DNA of 64,000 nucleotides from Haloterrigena salina JCM 13891 (GTDB taxonomy: Archaea > Halobacteriota > Halobacteria > Halobacteriales > Natrialbaceae). The translations under genes were made by a program, and so were the position numbers. Within the stretch, counting starts at the first letter, position 1; every line of letters starts with the position of its first letter. Below are positions 4,272 to 48,277 of this stretch, piece by piece. Where the stretch lies: positions 1 to 64,000 of the forward strand of contig NZ_AOIS01000063.1 of the NCBI RefSeq assembly GCF_000337495.1, in the 5' to 3' direction. Under the pieces are notes generated by a model. That model had not been told where the DNA came from, did not search any database, and saw only the letters and a list, made by a program, of their open reading frames with translations.

Positions 4272-4718
4272 ATGAGCGATTCGCTCGCGGAGGCCGTTCG
4301 GACCCGGCTTCGCGCATTGCTCTCGACGGCGCGGTTTAGCCAGTTCGCCGGCGTCGGGATCGTCGGTGCGACGGTCGATATCGTCGGCCTCGCCCTGCTG
4401 GTCGACGTGTTCGAACTCTGGTATCTAGGGGCGAAGACGATCTCGTGGGAGCTGTCGATCGTCGTCATCTTCGCGATCAACGAACACTGGACGTTCGCCA
4501 CCTACGGCGATATGACGCCTCGAGCGCTGGTCCGGCGGTTCCTGCGCTCGAACGCGGTGCGCTTTGCCGGCTTCCTGGTCACGTTGACGGTCTACGGCGT
4601 GCTGGTCGATCGGTTCGGCGTCTGGTATCTGGCGGCGAACGTCGTCGGCATCGTGGTCGGCTTCTTCGTCAACTACACCTGCGAAAGCCTCTACACGTGG
4701 AAAGTCCATCACGACTGA
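4272..4718 (+). CDS. GtrA-like family membrane protein
   Basis: A protein of about 148 residues with four hydrophobic segments: FAGVGIVGATVDIVGLALLV, a second ending SIVVIFAINEHWTF, then FLVTLTVYGVLV, and finally NVVGIVVGFFVNYTCESLYTW. This is the layout of the GtrA/DPMS-flippase family (PF04138), whose members help move polyprenyl-phosphate-linked sugars across the membrane during cell-surface glycosylation. The NEHWTF and NYxxxSxxxW motifs are typical. A GTG three codons upstream (4263) is an alternative start. No glycosyltransferase partner lies next to it, so the substrate is open. Confidence 0.85.
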   Translation: MSDSLAEAVRTRLRALLSTARFSQFAGVGIVGATVDIVGLALLVDVFELWYLGAKTISWELSIVVIFAINEHWTFATYGDMTPRALVRRFLRSNAVRFAGFLVTLTVYGVLVDRFGVWYLAANVVGIVVGFFVNYTCESLYTWKVHHD

Positions 4719-5361: not shown

Positions 5362-7137
5362 ATGACCTTCCCGTCGGATCGGTCTGACGACCGAGTAAGT
5401 AGACGTGCCGTGCTCGCCGCTGGAAGTACTGGAATCGCCGGTTCCGTAGCCGGCTGTATGGACCGCATTCAGCGACTCATCACCGGCGCCGCCAGCGATC
5501 AACTCTCGATAACCATCTTAACGCTACCCACGGACAACGACCGACAGGCGATCAAGATCGCCCGCCAACTCGAGGAGAACCTCAAGGCGGTCGGTATCAA
5601 CGTCCGGATCGAGCCCCGCGCCGACGCCGAGTTGCTGCAGACCGTCTTGCTCGAGCACGACTTCGATTGTTACATCAGTCGCCACCCGGGCGGATACGAC
5701 CCCGACTTTCTGTACGAGACGTTTCACTCGAAGTTCGCCCCTGAAGCCGGTTGGCAAAACCCCTACGGGTTCGTGGACACCGAGCTCGACAAGTTACTCG
5801 AGCGACAGCGCTCGACGACGGGGTCGGAACGGGAGGAAGCGATCGGCGAAGCGCTCGACCGATTGGCGCAAACGCATCCGATCGTGCCGATCTGCGTTCC
5901 CGACGAGCGGCGGCTCGTCAGAACGGATCGGTTCGCCGGTTGGAACGATCACCACCTCGGGACCCGACTCGGCTATCTCGGTCTCGAGCCCGACGAGAAC
6001 GACTTCGAGGACGAGGTCGTCCTGAACGCGGTGATCACCGACTCGAGCCCCTCGAGAAACATCAATCCCCTCGCCGCGGCGTACCGCTATCGGGGTCCGT
6101 TCGTCGATCTGCTCTACGACTCGGTAGCGACCCGGGACGACGACGAGCTCCGGCCGTGGCTCGCCGAGTCCTGGGAGTGGGACGAGTCGGTCGCGACGAT
6201 CACGCTCCGATCGAACTGCCTGTTCCACGACGGCGAGCCGGTGACCGCCGACGACGTCAAGTTTACGTACGATCTCCTGGACGACACCTCGCTCGGCGAC
6301 CGCGACGGGCAGTCGCCGGCGCCGAGATACCGCGGGGTGGGCGACGCCGTCGAATCGGTGACGGCCGTCGACGACCGAACCGTTCGGATGCGATTCGGGA
6401 CGAGCGACGAGGTCGGTGAACTGGCCTTTACCGTCCCGATTCTCCCGAAACACATCTGGAAGACGGCGGTCGAAGACCGCCTCGAGAACGGCGCAGAGCC
6501 TATCCAGGGGACGTGGGATCTCGTGACCACCGAAGAGATTCCGCCGATCGGCAGCGGTCCGTTCGCGCTCACCGAGCAGGAGCCGCGCTCGCACCTTCGT
6601 TTCGAGCGCTTCGACGACCACTTCACCCGCCGCGGCTACGTCGACCTGCCAGAGCCCCGCGTCGACGAGATCGCCTTTCACGTCGAACCGAACAGTAGCG
6701 CGGCCGTCGACCAGCTCGAGGCGGGGAACGCCGACGTGACGGGCACTATCCTCGGCTCGGAGACGGTCGGAGACGTGCCGGACGGCCTCGAACTCGTCGA
6801 GTCCGAGTCGTGGACGTTCTACCACATCGGGTTCAACGTCAGGAACTCGCCGTTCAGCAACCTCCACTTCCGGCGAAACGTCGCGCGATTGATCGACAGG
6901 GAGTCGCTCGTGGCGGACGTCTTCAACGAGCAGGCGAGCCCGACCGTCACGCCGGTTACGGGGGAGTGGGTTCCGGACGACCTCGAGTGGGACGGTTCGG
7001 CACCATACGCGCCCTTTTTCCGTGACGAAACAAACAGTGGGGATACGGGAGAACTGGACATAGAACGAGCGAAGCGCGAATTCGAACGACACGGGTTCCA
7101 GTACGACGAAGACGGAGAATACATCGTGAGGTCCTAA
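5362..7137 (+). CDS. ABC substrate-binding lipoprotein, family 5, circularly permuted
   Basis: A 591-residue exported protein. It has a twin-arginine signal (RVSRRAVLAAG, R14-R15) and a lipobox with Cys32 (SVAGC), so it should be a Tat-exported lipoprotein. It belongs to the peptide/nickel-binding SBP_bac_5 family, but the order is unusual. Residues about 45-215 resemble the C-terminal part of a normal member (ITILTLPTDNDRQAIKIARQ, then LKAVGINVRIE and YDPDFLYETFHS). Residues from about 217 resemble the normal N-terminal and middle parts (LRSNCLFHDGEPVTADDVKF near 282-301; FHVEPNSSAAVDQLEAGNAD). The protein ends at AKREFERHGFQYDEDG, exactly where the N-terminal segment would normally follow. 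No permease or ATPase adjoins it; its only partner is the PAP2 gene, whose ATG overlaps the stop (TAATG). The ligand is unknown. Confidence 0.85.
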   Translation: MTFPSDRSDDRVSRRAVLAAGSTGIAGSVAGCMDRIQRLITGAASDQLSITILTLPTDNDRQAIKIARQLEENLKAVGINVRIEPRADAELLQTVLLEHDFDCYISRHPGGYDPDFLYETFHSKFAPEAGWQNPYGFVDTELDKLLERQRSTTGSEREEAIGEALDRLAQTHPIVPICVPDERRLVRTDRFAGWNDHHLGTRLGYLGLEPDENDFEDEVVLNAVITDSSPSRNINPLAAAYRYRGPFVDLLYDSVATRDDDELRPWLAESWEWDESVATITLRSNCLFHDGEPVTADDVKFTYDLLDDTSLGDRDGQSPAPRYRGVGDAVESVTAVDDRTVRMRFGTSDEVGELAFTVPILPKHIWKTAVEDRLENGAEPIQGTWDLVTTEEIPPIGSGPFALTEQEPRSHLRFERFDDHFTRRGYVDLPEPRVDEIAFHVEPNSSAAVDQLEAGNADVTGTILGSETVGDVPDGLELVESESWTFYHIGFNVRNSPFSNLHFRRNVARLIDRESLVADVFNEQASPTVTPVTGEWVPDDLEWDGSAPYAPFFRDETNSGDTGELDIERAKREFERHGFQYDEDGEYIVRS

Positions 7138-16340: not shown

Positions 16341-17561
16341 TTATAACGAGTTGTTTCCGACGACCGCCGCGATCGAGTCGGCGATTTCGCCGCCCAGTCC
16401 CGCCTTCGTTCCCTCGTAGCGGGCGGCGTCGGCGTCGTGGACCAGCAGCGCCGCGGTCCGATCCGATCCCATCACGCCCGCGTCGTTGGCGACGACGAAG
16501 GCCAGGCCCGCGCGCTCGAGCGTCTCGCGGGCCTTCTCGATCATCGCCGCCTCGTCGCCGGAGGTCTCGGTCTTGAAGCCGACGATCGGCAGGTCGGGTC
16601 GCGCCTCGCGGACCTCGTCGATGAGTTTCGGCGTCGGCTCGAGGTCGAGCGAGAGCTGCTGGCCGGAGCGGATCTTCTCGTCGCTGCCCTCGACGGTGTA
16701 GTCGCCGATCGCGGCCGCCGAAACCAGCGCGTCCGCGTCCGCACAGGCGTCGCGGGTCGCCGCGAGCATCTCGCTCGCGCTCTCGACGTGCCGGACGGCG
16801 GCGTAGGGGAGGTTCCCGTCGCCGTCGGTTTCCGACGGTCCGTCGCCGTCCCCGATCGGTCGCGGGCCGACGACGCCGTGGACCAGCGCCACGTCCGCGC
16901 CGCGAGCGTAGCAGGCCCTCGCGACCGCACGCCCCATCTTCCCCGACGATCGGTTCGTGATCACGCGCACGGGATCGATCGACTCGGCGGTCGCGCCGCT
17001 GGTGACGACGACGCGCTCGCCCTCGAGCGATCGCTCGCCGGCCGCGCGGGCCACGTCGCAGACGATCGCCTCCTCGCTGGCGATCTTGGCCTTCCCCTCC
17101 TCGAGGCGCGGATCGACGAAGTCGACGCCCCACTCGGCGACGGTGTCGATGGCCTCGAGGACGCCGGGGTGGTCGTACATCGGTTCGTGCATCGCGGGGG
17201 CGAGGACGACCGGCGTGTCGGCGCCGAGCGCGGTCGTCGCGCACGTGGTCACGGGCGTGTCGTCGACCGCGCTGGCGATCTTGCCGACCGTGTTCGCCGT
17301 CGCCGGGGCGATCAGGAACACGTCGGCCCAGCCGTCGTTACCGCAGAGCTCGACGTGCTCGACGCTGCCGGTGATCTCGGTGACGACCTCGTTGTCGGTG
17401 GCGAACTCCACGGCCCAGGGATGGATGATCCCCTGCGCACTGCCGGTCATGACGCCGCGCACCTCGGCCCCCTGTCGTCGCAACTCGTGGGCCAGTTCGA
17501 CCGTCTTCACGGCCGCGATCGACCCCGTCACTCCGAGCGCGACGTTGACTCCCTCGAGCAT
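16341..17561 (-). CDS. coaBC: Bifunctional phosphopantothenoylcysteine decarboxylase / phosphopantothenate-cysteine ligase
   Basis: A 406-residue coenzyme A biosynthesis enzyme that joins 4'-phosphopantothenate to cysteine and decarboxylates the product. The N-terminal CoaC flavoprotein domain (about 1-185) has GVTGSIAAVKTVELAHELRR, the APATANTVGKIA flavin loop and the archaeal PAMHEPMY form of the PxMNxxMW motif. The C-terminal CoaB domain (about 187-406) has VVVTSGATAESIDPVRVI, NRSSGKMG, a conserved lysine-rich substrate segment (GSDEKIRSG) and GFKTET. The length is normal. Confidence 0.96.
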   Translation of the reverse strand: MLEGVNVALGVTGSIAAVKTVELAHELRRQGAEVRGVMTGSAQGIIHPWAVEFATDNEVVTEITGSVEHVELCGNDGWADVFLIAPATANTVGKIASAVDDTPVTTCATTALGADTPVVLAPAMHEPMYDHPGVLEAIDTVAEWGVDFVDPRLEEGKAKIASEEAIVCDVARAAGERSLEGERVVVTSGATAESIDPVRVITNRSSGKMGRAVARACYARGADVALVHGVVGPRPIGDGDGPSETDGDGNLPYAAVRHVESASEMLAATRDACADADALVSAAAIGDYTVEGSDEKIRSGQQLSLDLEPTPKLIDEVREARPDLPIVGFKTETSGDEAAMIEKARETLERAGLAFVVANDAGVMGSDRTAALLVHDADAARYEGTKAGLGGEIADSIAAVVGNNSL

Positions 17562-17614: not shown

Positions 17615-18349
17615 CTACGCTTCCGGGACGAGGTCGACCCGGTCGGCGAGCCACTCGAGGGCTCGATCGACGGTTTCGGAATCGGTACCGGTCACCTTCA
17701 AGCGGTTTCGCCGCTCCGTGTCCGGATAGCTGCCGATCGTCACGTCGAAGCGCTCGCGAGCGTCGGCGATCGCGTCGACGACCGATGCCTCCGGCTGTGG
17801 CGTGTAGACGGTCCTCGAGACGGCGTCGCCGCTAAATTCCCTGCCGACCCGCTCGAACAGCGCTTTCAGCTCTGCGGGCACGCCCGGGAAGGCGTACACG
17901 TTCTCGAGGACGCAGCCGGGACAGAGCCCCTCCGGATTGAGCAGCGGTCGGCTCCCGGCGGGCAGCGCCGCCCAGGCGTCGACGTCGAAGTCGAGTTCCT
18001 CGGGCGCGACCGACTCGGGATCGAGATCGCGGTACTCCGCGACGGTCTCGTGGACGTCTCGGCGGACGGACTCGTCGACGACGAGCTCGCGGTCGAACGC
18101 GTCCGCGAGGGAATCGGCGGTGACGTCGTCGTGAGTACCGCCGAGCCCGCCGGTCACGATCACGGCGTCGAGGGGGTCCGTCCACTCCCGAATCGTCGCC
18201 GCGATGCGGTCGCGGTCGTCGGGGAGAGTGAGAATCCGATCGACGGTCGCGCCGCTGTCGGTCAGGCGGCTCGCGAGCCACTTCGCGTTCGTATTCGCGA
18301 TGTCGCCGGCGAGCACTTCGTCGCCGACGGTGAGAATGGCGACCTCCAT
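17615..18349 (-). CDS. CinA-like molybdopterin-binding domain protein
   Basis: A 244-residue protein of the MoCF/CinA N-terminal family: VAILTVGDEVLAGDIANTNA, the VTGGLGGTHDDVT glycine loop, and the AFPGVPAELKALFERV segment. It lacks the C-terminal deamidase domain of bacterial CinA, as archaeal members do. The closest known activities in the family are nucleotide or ADP-ribose pyrophosphatase reactions; the role here is not certain. The ATG at 18349 (MEVAILTVGDE) is chosen over a start nine codons upstream because the family begins directly with this strand. Confidence 0.85.
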   Translation of the reverse strand: MEVAILTVGDEVLAGDIANTNAKWLASRLTDSGATVDRILTLPDDRDRIAATIREWTDPLDAVIVTGGLGGTHDDVTADSLADAFDRELVVDESVRRDVHETVAEYRDLDPESVAPEELDFDVDAWAALPAGSRPLLNPEGLCPGCVLENVYAFPGVPAELKALFERVGREFSGDAVSRTVYTPQPEASVVDAIADARERFDVTIGSYPDTERRNRLKVTGTDSETVDRALEWLADRVDLVPEA

Positions 18350-18400
18350 CGAGTGAATCGATGCGGAGAACGGCAAAAAGGGTGGCGTCGCGGCGGTTCG

Positions 18401-18535
18401 CTACCGGTTGGATGGAGACAGCGGATTCGACACCTCGCTCGTGACGTACTCGTGGCGTTTGCCCCGTAGTCGCATCGCCGTCAGCGCCTTGTGCGTCGCC
18501 GGCTCGTCGAACAGTCCGCGTCCGTCGCGTCGCAT
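18401..18535 (-). pseudogene. 3'-end fragment of a siderophore synthetase gene (duplicated iucA/iucC tail)
   Basis: The reverse strand from 18535 to the TAG at 18401 reads 44 codons, including DEPATHKALTAMRLRGKRHE then YVTSEVSNPLSPSNR. This is the C-terminus of the NIS synthetase encoded at 19771-21927, which has YVTNEVSNPLSQSDR at the same place. By eye about 121 of 135 bases match, with an uninterrupted identical run of 67 (18444-18510 versus 19814-19880). Nothing upstream of 18535 continues the homology. It is therefore a gene remnant or recombination scar. Confidence 0.85.
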
Positions 18536-18596
18536 TCTATCGGAACCACAGACTGTACCCACAAAGTGTTAGTCACTGTAATTGAAACTACGACCG

Positions 18597-19595
18597 ATGC
18601 GGATACGTCAGCTTCAGTGGGGAGACCGCGGCATCTCGATCGTCATCGGGACGGTGCTGCTCGTCGGAATCGTGACCATAACGATGGCGATCCTCGCGAC
18701 GGCGATCCTCGGTACCGATCTCATCGACCGGTCGCCGGAGGCCGATATCGTCTACGAAGAGGACCAGAACGGGACGGTACTGATCGCGTTGGCCGACGCT
18801 CGAGGCCTGTCCGCCGGGAACACCGAACTCCAACTACGGGGCGAGGGGAGTTGCGGCTCCTGGGACGGCGACGGGACGCTCGGAAAGGGATCGATCACGC
18901 TTCTCGAGGGCAGCGACTGTCCGGACTCGCTCGAGGAGGGCGACGTGATTCAGGTGATCGGCTCTGATACTCTCATCGACACCTATGAACTTCGGGGCCC
19001 GTTCGCTGATTTCGGCTGCGAAGCCTACGAAAGCGAACTGAAAAACGGCGATCCAATCATCATCGAGGACGGCGATACCGTTGCGTGTGACTTCACAGAT
19101 GACGGGAGTCGACTTCCGAACGATATTCGCGTCAGAGACGGTGGCACGTTAATCGGAAATATCAACACGAGCGGAGTACTCGAAATCACGGACGCTACCG
19201 TTGATGGTAACGTAGACAGTCTAGACGGGTTCGACTTGAAGGTGGGTTCGGTCGTCGATGGAGATGTCACTGCTGATGTGAAAAACGTCTATCTCCGAGA
19301 CGGTTCGGACGTCGAAGGGTCGATTGAGAGTCTAGATAGCGGGAAAGACGTCTACTTGGAAGTCGGATCCACGGAATCGAGCACTATCGGTGGGGACGTT
19401 ATGAGCGAGCGGCACGTGATTATCAAGGACAGTAATACTGTCGAAGGAAACGTCATCGCCGACGACGAAGTACAGTTGAAGAAAAACGCCATCGTCGAGG
19501 GAGACGTGCTAGAGGGAGAGATCACGGAATGCGGAAGCGGTGCCGAAATCAACGGCGAGCCCTGCCACGAGCACGAGAACTACACCGGTAGCTAA
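18597..19595 (+). CDS. Type IV pilin-like protein fused to a bactofilin-like beta-helix
   Basis: A 332-residue exported protein. Residues about 10-40 (DRGISIVIGTVLLVGIVTIT and on) are an archaeal type IV pilin N-terminus (PF07790-like): a charged leader, the R-G/I-S processing zone for prepilin peptidase, then one hydrophobic helix. Residues about 45-140 resemble haloarchaeal pilin bodies (SGDV-like EEGDVIQVIGSDTLIDTYEL). From about 175 to 320 there are turns of a VxGNV/VxGDV pattern (ATVDGNVDSL, VVDGDVTAD, DVEGSIESL, TIGGDVMS, TVEGNVIAD, IVEGDVLEG), spaced about 17-22 residues apart, as in polymer-forming bactofilin or DUF342-like beta-helices. The distal half (from about 19020) is clearly less GC-rich than its neighbours. 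ATG 18597 is preferred to TTG 18582. The role may be a surface filament or adhesin; this is inference. Confidence 0.75.
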   Translation: MRIRQLQWGDRGISIVIGTVLLVGIVTITMAILATAILGTDLIDRSPEADIVYEEDQNGTVLIALADARGLSAGNTELQLRGEGSCGSWDGDGTLGKGSITLLEGSDCPDSLEEGDVIQVIGSDTLIDTYELRGPFADFGCEAYESELKNGDPIIIEDGDTVACDFTDDGSRLPNDIRVRDGGTLIGNINTSGVLEITDATVDGNVDSLDGFDLKVGSVVDGDVTADVKNVYLRDGSDVEGSIESLDSGKDVYLEVGSTESSTIGGDVMSERHVIIKDSNTVEGNVIADDEVQLKKNAIVEGDVLEGEITECGSGAEINGEPCHEHENYTGS

Positions 19596-19770
19596 CTCGA
19601 TTCGAAAGACTGCCGTTCACCGCTCGATGACCGAGGTCGCTATCGGCCGATCTCCTATAATACCCCGCGCATCACCGAGACCTTCGACTGACATATAGAC
19701 CGGTTCCTCACGGTGTCGTGAGCCCGTGTAGCTGTCCACTTGTTTAGCCGGCTTACCGGACGATCTTCCG

Positions 19771-19905
19771 TTACCGGTCGGACTGAGACAACGGATTCGA
19801 TACCTCGTTCGTAACGTACTCGTGGCGTTTGCCCCGTAGTCGCATCGCCGTCAGCGCCTTGTGCGTCGCCGGCTCGTCGAGCAGCGCGCGTTCGTCGCGC
19901 CGGAT
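19771..19905 (-). repeat. Second copy of the 135-bp siderophore-synthetase tail repeat
   Basis: The genuine 3' end of the NIS synthetase gene, matching 18401-18535 in direct orientation at an offset of 1,370 bases. The two copies bracket the pilin-like gene and its flanks (18536-19770). Both copies keep an intact stop codon at the equivalent position (TAG and TAA). Confidence 0.85.
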
Positions 19906-21927
19906 GCGATCCTCCGGAACGTCCCCGTCGGCGCGAAGTTCCGCGAACGCTCGCTCGCACTGCTCGCGGATCCGCGTCCAGCACGCGCGCTCGTCGACCG
20001 CGAGTTCGTAGTCGACCGTCGCGACGAGCTCGGCGAGGTGGTTCTGGAAGAGCGCGTAGTACAGCTTCCGGTGTAGGGCCGCCTCGCCGTCGGCCGCGAG
20101 GTCCGAATCCGGATACGGCTCGAGCGAGAGTCCGCGGGCCTCGAGCCGTCGGCCGTGAACCCGAATGCCGCCGAGGTCCCGGACCAGCGTCGCCGTCGGG
20201 GACGCGTCCGCGGCGTCGAAGACGACCAGGCTGTTCTGGAGGTGGCTCTCCAGAGCGATCCCGTACGCCGAGGAGAGCCGCAACTGGTCGGGGACGACGA
20301 CCGCGGCGTAGCGCTCGAGGAACTCGAGGGCGGCGTCCGCGGGGTCCGAACGACCGCGCGCCGTCGCGTACTGTTCGATCAGGTCGCAGACGAGCGGGCG
20401 GCCGGAGGCCGGCGAGTCGGCGACGAGGCTCGAGGCGACGACCGGTATCATGTCGTCCGGACTGTTCCGGACGAGCGGGTGCGCTTCGGGATTCGTTCGC
20501 AGCAGTCCCGACAGGTGCCGAGCGTCGTCGTACGCCTCGCCGCACGGATGGGGGCCGCCGGGCGCGTGGTAGCAGGTCGCCGCGGGTTCGGCCAGCAGCC
20601 CCAGCGACTCGACGGGCTCTCGCTCCGCGATCGTCGAAACGATGTCGGTAACTCGCGGCCCGTTAGCCACGGCCTGGGGCGACAGCGTCCGCACGACGTT
20701 GGTCGTCTGGACGGGGATCGCCAGTTTGAGGTGGGGTAGCGGGCCATCGACGTGATCCGTTCGGTCGGTGTCGTACGGAACGATCGTGCGGAGATTCAGC
20801 TGCGGCGTCGCCGGGTGTGCGTAGTCGGGAATCGGAACGACGCGACCGTCGTCGATTCGGTCGGCGTAGCGGTCCGGAATCGTCCGGTGATACTGGAGGG
20901 GGTGGACGGGAACGACGGCGTACGCGTCGGGGTCGCGGCCCGTCGGCAGCGCTCGCTCGAGGGCGCCCTCGAGGCCGTCGAACGTCGCGAACAGCCGATC
21001 GGTCAGGCGTTCTCCGGCCTCGGCGACGCTTCGCTCGCCGCCATCCGATCGGTCGCCGACGCTCGTCTCGAGGGCGTACTCGCGGTCGATCGCGACGACC
21101 CGGAGATCGATCCGGTCGGTGAACTCGGGCGCGTAGGCCAGCCCCTCCGCCGGGGTCATTCCACGTCGGATCTTGCCGCTCGGATGGAATGGGTGGCCGT
21201 CAGTGACGATCCGCTCGAACGCGGCGGCGTCGTCGGCCGCCGGAACGCCGTCCGCGACGGCCTCGAGCGGCGCTCGGTCCGCACTGGCGTCGCGAACGAC
21301 GGTCCGCGCGTGAGCGTCGCCGGCCAGTCGCGCGAGCGCGAGGTTAGCGACGCTCTCGGCCACCTCACCGCGGATCCGCTCGGCCTGCTCGGCGTCGCTG
21401 AACGCCCCCTCGCACTCGAGGAGCGGAACGAGGTCCGCGGGGTGAGTCAGTTCCGCGAGGGTCCCCTCGGTCCATCGATAGAGCGCTCCGACCGGTCGGA
21501 ACCGGTCGTAGCCGTGTCGCCGCGCGATCGGGACGAACAGAACGGTCCCGGAGTCGGAACACGGAACGACGGCGAGTCGACGACAGGATTCGGGAACCGC
21601 CGCGACGACGTCATCGACGACCGATTCGAGAGGGTCGCCTCCGAGCATCGAACCCGCCGCCGAAATTCGGTCCGCGTCCGCCGAGACCGTCTCGAGGTCG
21701 ACGAACCGAGCCGCGGGAAACCCGGCCAGATCGCCGCGGAGTATTCCGCGAGCGAATCGATGGCAGATCTCGCGTCGGGCGCCCTCGAGAGCCTCGAGGT
21801 AGGCGTCCCCGGCCGGTCGCGAGAGGTCGTGCGTCCGAGCGTATCTGGCGGCGGCGCCGACGGTCGCCCGTTCGGCCGCCGTGCGGAGAGTGGGGTAGTC
21901 GCGATCCCCGCGATTCGTCCCGGTCAT
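19771..21927 (-). CDS. IucA/IucC-type NIS siderophore synthetase
   Basis: A 718-residue enzyme of the NRPS-independent siderophore synthetase family, which adenylates a carboxylic acid such as citrate and condenses it with an amine or alcohol. The ATP-binding signature HPFHPSGKIRRGMTP is present. So are VVPVHPLQYHR, the LKLAIPVQTTNVVRTLSPQ segment, and GIALESHLQNSLV with VRDLGGIRVHG, all typical of IucA/IucC. The C-terminal FhuF-like or extended part ends at NEVSNPLSQSDR. The ATG at 21927 is used; an upstream start would add 10 residues. The family normally sits in operons with a second synthetase, a monooxygenase and an acyltransferase. None is here, only the remnant tail 1.4 kb away. Confidence 0.9.
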   Translation of the reverse strand: MTGTNRGDRDYPTLRTAAERATVGAAARYARTHDLSRPAGDAYLEALEGARREICHRFARGILRGDLAGFPAARFVDLETVSADADRISAAGSMLGGDPLESVVDDVVAAVPESCRRLAVVPCSDSGTVLFVPIARRHGYDRFRPVGALYRWTEGTLAELTHPADLVPLLECEGAFSDAEQAERIRGEVAESVANLALARLAGDAHARTVVRDASADRAPLEAVADGVPAADDAAAFERIVTDGHPFHPSGKIRRGMTPAEGLAYAPEFTDRIDLRVVAIDREYALETSVGDRSDGGERSVAEAGERLTDRLFATFDGLEGALERALPTGRDPDAYAVVPVHPLQYHRTIPDRYADRIDDGRVVPIPDYAHPATPQLNLRTIVPYDTDRTDHVDGPLPHLKLAIPVQTTNVVRTLSPQAVANGPRVTDIVSTIAEREPVESLGLLAEPAATCYHAPGGPHPCGEAYDDARHLSGLLRTNPEAHPLVRNSPDDMIPVVASSLVADSPASGRPLVCDLIEQYATARGRSDPADAALEFLERYAAVVVPDQLRLSSAYGIALESHLQNSLVVFDAADASPTATLVRDLGGIRVHGRRLEARGLSLEPYPDSDLAADGEAALHRKLYYALFQNHLAELVATVDYELAVDERACWTRIREQCERAFAELRADGDVPEDRIRRDERALLDEPATHKALTAMRLRGKRHEYVTNEVSNPLSQSDR

Positions 21928-22023
21928 AGTAGAGCCACGACGAACCGGTCCTTCCACGCGCCCCGCTGTTAACTCACCGGGTGGCGATACACTGGTCGCG
22001 ACCGCGTTGCCGTCCGATCGCCG

Positions 22024-29902: not shown

Positions 29903-31705
29903 GTGACTCCCGATACGCCGGACCGTCTCCTCCGCGTCGACCTCTCGACGAGAACGGTCGAGAGCGTTCCCGTCCCGGAGGCGTGGCTCCGTCGATACGT
30001 CGGCGGGAAGGGGCTGGGCGCCCGGTACCTCTACGAGGAACTCGAGGCCGGCGTCGATCCGCTCGGTCCGTCGAACGCCCTGCTCTTCATGCTCGGGCCG
30101 CTCTCGGGACGCCTGCCCGGCGAGTCGCGGTACGCCGCCGTCACGAAGTCGCCGCTGACCGGCGGGTTCCTCGACTCCTACGCGGGCGGCTCGTTCCCGG
30201 ACGCGCTCGTCGGCGCGCTCGGGCCCAACGCGGGGCTGCTCGTCACCGGCCAAGCGGACGAACCCGTCCGCGTCGTCGTCGAGGACGGCGCGGCGACCGT
30301 CGAACCGACCGACGCGTGGGGCGAGGACACCATCGAAACGGCGGCGGCTCATCCCGACGCGGCGGTGGCCTGCATCGGCCCGGCGGGCGAACGGGAGGTC
30401 GCCTACGCGACGATCGCCTCCGACGAGGGCGACCACCACGCGGGCCGAGGCGGCGCCGGTGCCGTGATGGGATCGAAGCGCCTGAAGGCCGTCGTCGCGA
30501 GGGGCGAACCGCCCGCCCTCGAAGACGAGCGCCTGACGGCCCTGCGCGAGGCCTTCGCCGAGCGGTACCGCGACGACGAGACCGGCCGCTGGCTGCGAGC
30601 GAGCGAGACGGTCGAGAGCGTCGACTTCGCCAACGAGGTCGGCGCACTCTCGACCCGCGGCTGGGCGGACGGCCGATTCGAGGACGCCGACGCGATCGGC
30701 GTCGGCGCGGTCAGGGAGCGGGCGACCGGACGGGAGAACGAGAGCGCGGACGCCGACACCGACGACCCGGGCGGCTTCCGCGTCGAGACCGACGAGGGCG
30801 ACTACGTCCCGCGCGGGGCCGCGTCGATGTCGCTGGGGGCCGGCCTCGGTATTAACGAGTTCGACGCCGTCGCACAACTGGGCCAGACCTGCGACCGGCT
30901 CGGGGTGGACCTCATCAGCGCCGGCAGCGCCGTCGCGTGGACGATCAAGGCCGCCGACGCGGCCCTGCTCGAGCGCTCGCTCGACTTCGGCGACCCCGAC
31001 GGCGCCCGGCGGCTGCTCGAGGAGATCGCCGCGCGGGAGACGCCGCTGGGCGACGCGCTCGCCGACGGAGTCGACGCGGCCGCCGAGCGGTTCGGCGGGG
31101 ACGACCTCGTCCCGACAGTCAAGGCGATGGCGCTGCCGGCGTACGATCCCCGCGGCGCACAGAGCATGGCGCTGGCATACGCGACCAGCGACCGGGGGGC
31201 CTGTCACCGACGGGCCCGGCCGATCGAGCGCGAGGTGTTCGACGGGGAGTGGAGCCCCGACCGCACGGCCGAGACCGTCGTCGCCGAGCAGGACCGGCGG
31301 TCGATCCTGTGGTGTCTCATCGTCGATGACTTCGTCGGCGAGGCGTTCGACGACCTCGGGGCGGCGTGGCTCGACGCCGTCGGGCTGGAGCCGCTGGGCG
31401 ACCTCGCGACCGTCGGCGAGCGGGTCTGGAACCTGACGCGGCTGTTCAACGTCCGGGAGGGCGTGACTCGCTCCGACGACGTGCTGCCGTCGCCGCTTCG
31501 AGAGCCCCTCGAGTCCGGACCCAACGCCGGGGAGGCCGTCGACCGCGAGCGGTTCGAGGCGACCCTCGACCGGTACTACCGGAAGCGCGGCTGGGGTCCC
31601 GACGGGCGACCGACTCGAGCGACCGTCGAGCGACTGGACCTCGCCGAAGCGGTCGACAACGACTCGCTGCTCGCGTCCTCGACGTCGTCCGTTCCCGAAG
31701 AGTAA
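29903..31705 (+). CDS. Aldehyde ferredoxin oxidoreductase homologue lacking the main cysteine cluster
   Basis: A 600-residue member of the AOR family of tungsten/molybdopterin enzymes, which oxidise aldehydes to acids with ferredoxin. Family landmarks are RYVGGKGLGARYLYEEL (about 31-47), GPLSGRLPGESRYAAVTKSP, GRGGAGAVMGSKRLKAV (181-197), LGINEFDAVAQLGQTCDRLG (315-334), AYDPRGAQSMALAYATSDRG and GACHRRA. Where AORs carry CxxCPxxC (about 270-300), this protein reads RATGRENESADADTDDPGG with no cysteine. Only the distal cluster residue may survive (SILWCLIVDDF). Either the [4Fe-4S] centre is lost, or this is a paralogue with another role. The start is GTG at 29903, about 28 bases after a TATA-like GCTTTTTCC, a leaderless layout. 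Confidence 0.85.
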   Translation: MTPDTPDRLLRVDLSTRTVESVPVPEAWLRRYVGGKGLGARYLYEELEAGVDPLGPSNALLFMLGPLSGRLPGESRYAAVTKSPLTGGFLDSYAGGSFPDALVGALGPNAGLLVTGQADEPVRVVVEDGAATVEPTDAWGEDTIETAAAHPDAAVACIGPAGEREVAYATIASDEGDHHAGRGGAGAVMGSKRLKAVVARGEPPALEDERLTALREAFAERYRDDETGRWLRASETVESVDFANEVGALSTRGWADGRFEDADAIGVGAVRERATGRENESADADTDDPGGFRVETDEGDYVPRGAASMSLGAGLGINEFDAVAQLGQTCDRLGVDLISAGSAVAWTIKAADAALLERSLDFGDPDGARRLLEEIAARETPLGDALADGVDAAAERFGGDDLVPTVKAMALPAYDPRGAQSMALAYATSDRGACHRRARPIEREVFDGEWSPDRTAETVVAEQDRRSILWCLIVDDFVGEAFDDLGAAWLDAVGLEPLGDLATVGERVWNLTRLFNVREGVTRSDDVLPSPLREPLESGPNAGEAVDRERFEATLDRYYRKRGWGPDGRPTRATVERLDLAEAVDNDSLLASSTSSVPEE

Positions 31706-31809
31706 CGCGGACGGAGACGTCCGATCCCGAGCGACCGCGACCCACGACCCGCGATCGCCGACTCGACGCCAAGGGTAATCCTTACTTTCGGACCCATCGT
31801 AGCGCCGCC

Positions 31810-32331
31810 GTGGACAGAATTCTCCTCAGTACGCTCGCCTATCGCCCGCCCGAGGCGGTCTTTCCGTACGTGCGGTCGTTCACCGACTACCCGCGGTACA
31901 CGGAACACCTCAAGGAGGTTCGCGTTCACGGCGACGGCGACGTCGGTTCGATCTACGACCTGAAACTGGCGTGGTGGAAGCTCAGCTACACCGCCCGCTC
32001 GGAGGTCGTCGCCATCGACGCGCCGTCGTCGCTCGAGTGGCGGCTGACCAACGACATCGACGCCCGCGGGGAGTGGCGCGTCGAAGCGGAGCCCGAATCG
32101 GCTCCCGACGGCGAGGAGACTGCGAGTCGGATCTACTTCGAAGCGGTCTACGACCCGCACTCGGCCGACGAGAACACGCTCTCGCTCCCCCGGTTCGTCT
32201 CGCTGGACTGGGTCGTCAAGAAGGTCGAGCCGAAACTCCTCGGCGAGGCGCGAGAGGTCGTCGAACGGCTCGTCGCGGACATCGAGGGCCGATCTCGGGA
32301 TGTCGAACTGACGGTTCACGAGATGCCCTGA
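31810..32331 (+). CDS. SRPBCC/START-like ligand-binding protein
   Basis: A 173-residue soluble protein of the SRPBCC (polyketide cyclase/coenzyme Q-binding) superfamily: VDRILLSTLAYRPPEAVFPY, VRSFTDYPRYTEHLKEVRV, a set of beta strands, and the long C-terminal helix ending LGEAREVVERLVADIEG. These proteins hold hydrophobic ligands in a deep pocket; the ligand here is unknown. The start is GTG at 31810. The open frame continues upstream without an obvious start, but the family begins at this point. It is convergent with the MFS gene at 32390. Confidence 0.8.
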   Translation: MDRILLSTLAYRPPEAVFPYVRSFTDYPRYTEHLKEVRVHGDGDVGSIYDLKLAWWKLSYTARSEVVAIDAPSSLEWRLTNDIDARGEWRVEAEPESAPDGEETASRIYFEAVYDPHSADENTLSLPRFVSLDWVVKKVEPKLLGEAREVVERLVADIEGRSRDVELTVHEMP

Positions 32332-47140: not shown

Positions 47141-47593
47141 TTAGTCGTCTCCGCCGTCCGCGAGAACGCGTTCCTCGGGCGAGGGTCGGCCGGGGTGGAC
47201 GCCGTAGCTGGCGAAGCCGTACAGCACCGTCACCGCCACCGCACAGCAGACGACCGCACCTGAGATCGACTCGAGGATGAGCGGGATCGGCGGGGCGGCG
47301 AGTCCGTCGGTGACGGCCGCCGCCGAATCGCTTTCAGGGGCCGCGACCAGCGCGTAGGGGAGAAACGCGACGAACGCGACGACCCACCAGCGTTTCGCCG
47401 TCAGGCGGAGTTGAGCGACGCTGTCGTCGCGGACCTGGGTCGCGACGCCGGCGACGCCGAGCGCCATCAGAAGTAGGGACGGGAACAACCGGTACGGCGA
47501 GTCCAACCCGATATTACTCGCGACGCCGACGGCGACGAGCGCGACGGCCCCGACGAGCACCAAACTGGGACGTGACGCGAACGATCGTTTCAT
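47141..47593 (-). CDS. Four-helix membrane protein, paralogue 2
   Basis: A 150-residue protein with four helices (LVLVGAVALVAVGVASNIGL; LFPSLLLMALGVAGVAT; WWVVAFVAFLPYALVA; AVVCCAVAVTVLYGFA) and the tail YGVHPGRPSPEERVLADGGD. It matches the ending of the 46391 protein. ATG 47593 (MKRSFASRPSLVL) is used. The 294 bases between the two paralogues hold no supported gene. Confidence 0.7.
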   Translation of the reverse strand: MKRSFASRPSLVLVGAVALVAVGVASNIGLDSPYRLFPSLLLMALGVAGVATQVRDDSVAQLRLTAKRWWVVAFVAFLPYALVAAPESDSAAAVTDGLAAPPIPLILESISGAVVCCAVAVTVLYGFASYGVHPGRPSPEERVLADGGDD

Positions 47594-47866
47594 AGCTGCA
47601 AAGCGGTAGCGAGTCGTTGTACAAAACTCTCGCGAACCGGCCGCGCTCGACCGCGCGGATCGTGACCACAGTTCGGTCGCGGTCGACAACAAAGAACGTA
47701 TTACCGACGTCGACGAGACGAAGGTGAGAATGATGTGGCCCGAGACGCAACCGAGTGCGAGTCGGACGTCCGTCGGTACGGACCGACGGACGGCGATCCG
47801 CGCGGATCCGTTCCGTCGTTCGCCGAGACCGACCGTTCCCGTTCGGCCGACTCCGGAGGGTGATTC

Positions 47867-48277
47867 GTGCGGTTCGTAACCCGACTCTGGAAACGACACG
47901 TCCGGAAGCGGCCGGACGAGTATCAGGCGTACGTCTCCCTCCCGACGCGCGACGACGACCCGTCGTTCGGCGAGGTGCACGACTGTATCGAACGCCTGGA
48001 ACACGTCTTCGAGGGACGCCTCGACGTGTACGCGCGGACGCGCCGACTCGCGGTCGTTTCCGACCCCGTCTCGGCCGACCGGTTCGACGCCGACGCGTTC
48101 GAGGCCGCCCTCGAGTCGCTCGAGGACTGCTATGAGGCGCGCTCGCTCGCGCGAGTCGAGAAGTGGCGGCCGTCCGACGACCGGCTCGTCAAGTCCCACG
48201 TCGTCGTCCCGGTCAAGCCGCTGTTTCCACCCGATCGAGCGACCGACGAGCAGCGGATCGAGTCAGTCGTCGAGTAA
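47867..48277 (+). CDS. Hypothetical haloarchaeal protein
   Basis: A 136-residue protein with a basic N-terminus (MRFVTRLWKRHVRKRPDEYQ) and a ferredoxin-like alternation of strands and helices (YVSLPTRDDDPSFGEVHDCI, LDVYARTRRLAVVSDPVSAD, SHVVVPVKPLFPPD). No family was recognised. GTG 47867 is supported by GGAGGG at 47855-47860. A 49-codon frame (ATG 47730 to TAA 47879) overlaps this start and could be a coupled leader. Its product is basic and proline-rich, so I do not annotate it as a gene. Confidence 0.65.
   Translation: MRFVTRLWKRHVRKRPDEYQAYVSLPTRDDDPSFGEVHDCIERLEHVFEGRLDVYARTRRLAVVSDPVSADRFDADAFEAALESLEDCYEARSLARVEKWRPSDDRLVKSHVVVPVKPLFPPDRATDEQRIESVVE

Follow-up and report, generated by a model that had tools for sequence, protein, structure and literature searches.

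A haloarchaeal type IV pilin with a predicted beta-helix tail that appears to have been replaced between sister genomes

The window (the whole 64,000-nt stretch of Haloterrigena salina DNA that was analyzed) contains a gene encoding a pilin head followed by a beta-helix tail. It is flanked on the left by genes that are presumably CinA-like and dfp/CoaBC-like, and on the right by what is presumably an IucA/IucC-like siderophore synthetase gene. The features of the locus are as follows, where G000 is the window genome and G003 is a genome of the same genus.

16341 to 17561, minus strand: dfp/CoaBC-like gene, the neighbor common to the pilin locus in Natrinema
17615 to 18376, minus strand: CinA-like gene, left neighbor, whose homolog adjoins dfp in 12 Natrinema genomes
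18399 to 18541, no strand given: left copy of a 143-nt direct repeat, a duplicate of the 3' end of the IucA/IucC-like gene
18597 to 19595, plus strand: whole gene, pilin head plus beta-helix tail, 332 aa (from the ORF, profiles and model)
18597 to 18632, plus strand: prepilin leader MRIRQLQWGDRG, with PibD predicted to cut ahead of the hydrophobic segment (from sequence and PMC4371748)
18633 to 18998, plus strand: pilin head, a hydrophobic helix plus an Ig-like beta-sandwich (from the model, Foldseek, VIA and phmmer)
18973 to 19787, no strand given: putative replacement island, where G000 and G003 do not align, with flanks that are ~97% (left) and 92% (right) identical
18999 to 19592, plus strand: predicted beta-helix tail of class A, exchangeable, with some 9 turns of ~18 residues each (from the profile, model and trees)
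19769 to 19911, no strand given: right copy of the repeat, with 89% identity, which is the native 3' end of the IucA/IucC-like gene
19771 to 21957, minus strand: IucA/IucC-like siderophore synthetase gene, right neighbor

The reading frame checks out, with an ATG at 18597 and a stop codon at 19593-19595, and an alternative longer TTG start is listed at 18582. The initial annotation had described the product as a pilin joined to a bactofilin-like beta-helix, and this description is borne out by the Pilin_N and Bactofilin profiles and by a structure model (mean pLDDT 77.5) based on an alignment of six rows of related sequences. In this model, a hydrophobic helix (aa 15-38) leads into an Ig-like beta-sandwich (aa 48-131), after which come a hinge of low confidence (135-138), one short helix (141-150) and the short strands of a beta-helix (154-312), so that the anticipated beta-helix is indeed predicted. 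The fold obtained from the single sequence had a mean pLDDT of 58.5 and gave only weak beta-helix matches, and the six-sequence model was used instead. No description of a pilin/beta-helix fusion was found in the literature covered, which was open-access rather than subscription.

The head begins with a charged leader, then a peptidase site and then a hydrophobic helix (MRIRQLQWGDRG followed by ISIVIGTVLLVGIV, by inspection; helix 15-38 in the model), and the predicted cut (DRG/ISIV) is comparable to the RAVS sites in H. volcanii PilA (PMC4371748). The Pilin_N profile (PF07790) matches aa 11-65, with an E-value of 1.8e-8 and 35.5 bits vs. a gathering cut-off of 25.2. The model as a whole is matched best in fold by the H. 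volcanii type IV pilus subunit 8fj5_A (Foldseek E 2.8e-4, prob 1.00), which VIA aligns over 117 residues within the span 12-134 (Z 9.7, rmsd 4.7), and which is also recovered by sequence (phmmer E 0.0028). Since 8fj5 is matched both by fold (residues 12-134) and by sequence, aa 1-134 represent a complete pilin, to which the beta-helix is an addition. On all computable features (profile, leader and fold), the head is predicted to be a Haloferax-type archaeal type IV pilin. It resembles the H. volcanii PilA-type adhesion pilins (8fj5; PF07790) in its leader, hydrophobic helix, Ig-like domain and similar head length, but differs from them in the ~200 extra beta-helix residues that follow the complete pilin and that are replaced between sister species. 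No pilus genes were recognized adjoining the window locus; a prepilin peptidase family gene (PF01478) and several T2SSF/PilC-like genes are located elsewhere in its own genome.

The predicted bactofilin-like beta-helix, a parallel one, spans aa 141-320 with an 18-residue period, and the motif spacing in the tail is mostly 17-19 residues per turn. Bactofilin turns have a similar period, of ~18 residues. The Bactofilin profile (PF04519) matches aa 239-321 of the whole protein (E 1.4e-6, 28.9 bits vs. a gathering cut-off of 27.9), and matches better when the tail is used by itself (E 2.2e-7, 31.5 bits); it also exceeds the cut-off in several tails, the best of the others reaching 71.8 bits (6e-20). 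VIA also gives matches to LpxD-like, pectate-lyase-like and pentapeptide helices. The tail starts with a helix, and most members have cysteines near both tail ends.

The profile matches and the 18-residue period would also suit a bactofilin with a membrane anchor, in which the pilin-like helix does no more than anchor a polymerizing cytoskeletal beta-helix that forms filaments of its own. We consider this very unlikely. The head has an entire pilin fold and is thus more than an anchor, and export of the tail would follow from the pilin leader. With its capping helix and with cysteines where the helix begins, the tail looks more like a closed, secreted rod, and the genome retains a separate bactofilin-like gene of the cytoplasmic type. 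The typical bactofilin context (a cytoplasmic protein whose central helix is bordered by short variable segments) is not what is found here, where the helix follows a complete pilin and a prepilin leader. Thus the window tail is like bactofilins in its profile match and in its turns of ~18 residues, but unlike them it is fused to a pilin, is predicted to be extracellular and has ends that are probably capped. The term "bactofilin" denotes only a resemblance of fold and profile for this tail, and the fold would at most be employed as a rod. The initial description of the tail as "polymer-forming" is unsupported as stated, for a tail that is predicted to leave the cell, that begins with a helix and that in most members has cysteines close to either end.

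The two parts of the gene also differ in composition. GC content drops from ~0.64 to 0.52-0.53, starting near 18950, and GC3, which is 0.83-0.93 for six neighboring genes, has values of 0.79 for the head and 0.63 for the tail. With amino acids controlled for, and with codon use in the window's own genes as the reference, GC3 falls 23 points short in the tail but only 8 in the head. Among 107 comparable stretches of 198 codons in the window, a single one has a lower corrected GC3 than the tail, and this stretch lies mostly ahead of the MeaB domain in its ORF, which is probably over-extended from a wrong start. The corrected GC3 rules out that the GC break is a by-product of amino-acid content. 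It likewise excludes uniform codon use, and the proposed compositional break at the head/tail border is real; the suggested position of about 19020, however, lies ~20-50 nt past the domain border (18998/18999) and the DNA breakpoint (18973). Two other low-GC3 ORFs in the window, both on the minus strand (31579-32319 and 47144-48199), have no Pfam match, and may be foreign or wrong ORF calls.

Within the window genus, four of six genomes do not have the gene, which is therefore dispensable. In two genomes that lack it (G001 and G004), the CinA-like gene lies immediately next to the IucA/C-like gene and there is a single copy of the 143-nt segment, while G000 and G003 have two copies, one on each side of the pilin. 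The 143-nt segment may have been duplicated when the gene entered, or the gene may have been lost cleanly via the repeat. Apart from the repeat, no insertion element or integrase was recognized at the window locus. Within G003, both copies share changes, as if homogenized. In Natrinema, the pilin gene adjoins the same dfp-like gene in 9 of 29 genomes, and a CinA-like gene is found there in 12 others. N. mahii (G102) has the pilin together with a truncated CinA-like ORF (L086, 8139-8573 of the reverse complement), which is a remnant of the CinA-like gene that is whole next to dfp in other Natrinema. A neighborhood common to different genera fits transfer through homologous recombination in the flanking genes.

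G003 carries the same gene in the same place, and its DNA is 96.9% identical to that of G000 across 6.9 kb up to window position 18973. The alignment stops at this point, near the end of the head, and restarts at 19787 with 92% identity. In windowed comparisons, DNA identity has a median of ~96% outside the tail and is 43-55% within it, and the two proteins are 96% identical in the head and 34% identical in the tail. An assembly artifact is ruled out by G003, in which a 4.3-Mb contig has the same order, the same flanks and the same repeat. The Natrinema pair G109/G110 gives corresponding values (protein identity of 92% for the head and 34% for the tail; DNA identity of 94.7% outside and 57-75% in the tail, with flanks of 92-94%), and G105/G106a is a milder case (81% and 37% for protein; 91% and 33-61% for DNA). 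Between G102 and G105, divergence is already seen from approximately nt 165 of the pilin. Taken as alignments, these comparisons show what is best read as replacement of the tail between sister genomes, on at least two occasions.

Head-only proteins of 132-133 residues, which end at the border, are encoded in N. ejinorense (G100) and N. thermotolerans (G116), and in the latter the gene occupies the same site as the tailed gene in G105. Two more head-only proteins are found in other genera (G026 and G019). The head/tail border is shown to be a natural point where the pilin tolerates a large added domain. Proteins with both head and tail number at least 10 in the window genus plus Natrinema, and are present also in other haloarchaeal families. 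The initial annotation had proposed domain capture by transfer. Transfer of the C-terminal half is upheld by the sister genomes and by conflicting head and tail trees, but the fusion was not a recent one-off capture, since the head-tail combination is widespread and the recent movement was that of one tail for another. The best relatives of the window's own tail are ~40-44% identical, with no close donor in the sample. Scanning genome contigs by alignment yielded five Natrinema records and one short match, and scanning them with a single protein yielded no relative.

In the head tree, G000 and G003 group together (100/100), as do G109 and G110 (100/99). The tail tree instead separates class B (G003, G109, G117 and G106b) from class A, which contains all others (100/100). 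When the tail tree is forced to contain the head pair G000+G003, the AU test gives p = 0.012 (0.002-0.02 for three other alignments without the longest rows), and for the head pair G109+G110 it gives p = 4e-10 (1e-4 to 1e-6 for these other alignments). The weaker values for G000/G003 reflect the long branch of G003 in the tail tree. Given this rejection of the head pairs, the tails were most likely transferred between lineages.

If the tail had not been exchanged, it would have had to evolve very fast in place under positive selection, through point mutations and also through turns of 18 residues being gained, lost and shuffled. Tail length does vary, from 165 to 266 aa in units of ~18-residue turns, and repeats favor slippage and unequal crossing over. 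We regard this route as unlikely, however, as class B has non-repeat features that are common to G003, G109, G117 and G106b across genera, the AU test rejects the in-place tree for both sister pairs, and the break is abrupt and at one point, with adjoining coding DNA that is still 95-97% identical. We therefore describe the tail as an exchangeable module, based on its replacement in sister genomes, on tail classes that cut across the head tree, and on head-only versions that end at the border.

Mobile elements may have contributed to this exchange. In N. versiforme JCM 10478 (contig 49; L085), a class-B gene lies inside a provirus that resembles betapleolipovirus SNJ2 (integrase 82% and Orc1/Cdc6 88% identical), between the homologs of Orc1/Cdc6 (gp08) and gp09, which suggests a vector. 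SNJ2 itself (L174, NC_074646.1) encodes two tandem Pilin_N proteins (5587-6051 and 6072-6545; 4e-16 and 1e-16), of which the first is gp10, annotated as hypothetical, and the second is an ORF without annotation. The second gene of G106 is on an 85-kb contig, where a gp09 homolog and two canonical pilins lie nearby. Judged by gene content, carriage by a mobile element thus appears clear in one case (N. versiforme) and suggestive in one other (G106). This second beta-helix pilin of G106, of class B, occurs as two identical copies on contig C3 (L080), at 4366 and 75826, and encoded near it are an HNH_repeat protein and a protein of 1188 aa that has a Laminin_G_3 domain.

These cases could mean that the beta-helix pilin is mainly cargo of mobile elements, acting in lysogenic conversion or superinfection exclusion by altering host pili, with the chromosomal copies being relics or recombinants. 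Such a role is compatible with a modular pilin, but we find it rather unlikely, as there are no SNJ2-like genes near the window copy or any of the dfp-site copies, and a protein search of viral contigs, phage and plasmid collections gave no match to the fusion. Also doubtful is a reading in which interchangeable tails of at least two old classes were spread both by recombination and by temperate pleolipoviruses with pilin genes of their own, so that the pilus surface would be a switchable identity or receptor determinant, serving in lysogenic conversion, virus evasion or partner choice.

The explanation that we consider likely is that of a modular type IV pilin, with a slow head that evolves along with its genomic surroundings and an exchangeable beta-helix tail that projects as a contact surface. 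PibD would cleave the leader ahead of the hydrophobic helix (by a pathway as in PMC4371748), and the head would pack into the pilus, or remain a minor subunit, via machinery encoded elsewhere in the genome. The rod-like tail would project from the filament or its tip to form the contact surface, and homologous recombination with related DNA would swap the tails by way of the head and the downstream flank, which are both conserved. Diversifying pressure, whether from virus adsorption, partner recognition or substrate adhesion, would maintain the exchanges. From its exchange, we infer that the tail is a selected surface, and its function may be adhesion, partner recognition or virus evasion.

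The nearest evolutionary parallel to the window pilin is VARTIG of the Thermococcales, which is likewise an archaeal protein with a conserved front and a C-terminal region made hypervariable by recombination between species (PMC8416519). VARTIG differs in having Ig domains in a large protein, with no pilin or beta-helix, and its authors' search of other archaea via the Ig domains gave no close counterpart (PMC8416519). Antigenic variation of Neisseria PilE also combines a conserved pilin N-terminus with recombining C-terminal variation, and draws on silent cassettes in the same genome (PMC12871193). Here, in contrast, the exchange is between species and involves a whole added domain, and silent cassettes were not found: there is no second copy of the head or tail in the 71 contigs of the window's own genome, between which small gaps remain, and the other PF04519 matches in this genome are unrelated genes. 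The dual-level diversity of flagellins and archaellins (PMC7018530) is similar in that conserved and extremely diverse parts are present in one filament protein, but the diverse part of the window pilin is a beta-helix added at the C-terminus, which is missing altogether in some relatives.

In Sulfolobus islandicus, pilin deletions confer resistance to SSVs and SIRVs, and pilins are needed for infection (PMC7217056); partner recognition by Sulfolobus UpsA is determined by its variable region, according to work cited in PMC8416519. In the haloarchaeal pilin, the swapped tail domain is probably surface-exposed, and the results suggest that an exposed part of the cell surface is being exchanged rapidly, with viruses or neighboring cells perhaps exerting the pressure. 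Whole-domain swapping beside a constant assembly domain would provide a natural set of alleles for testing selection on haloarchaeal pilus surfaces.
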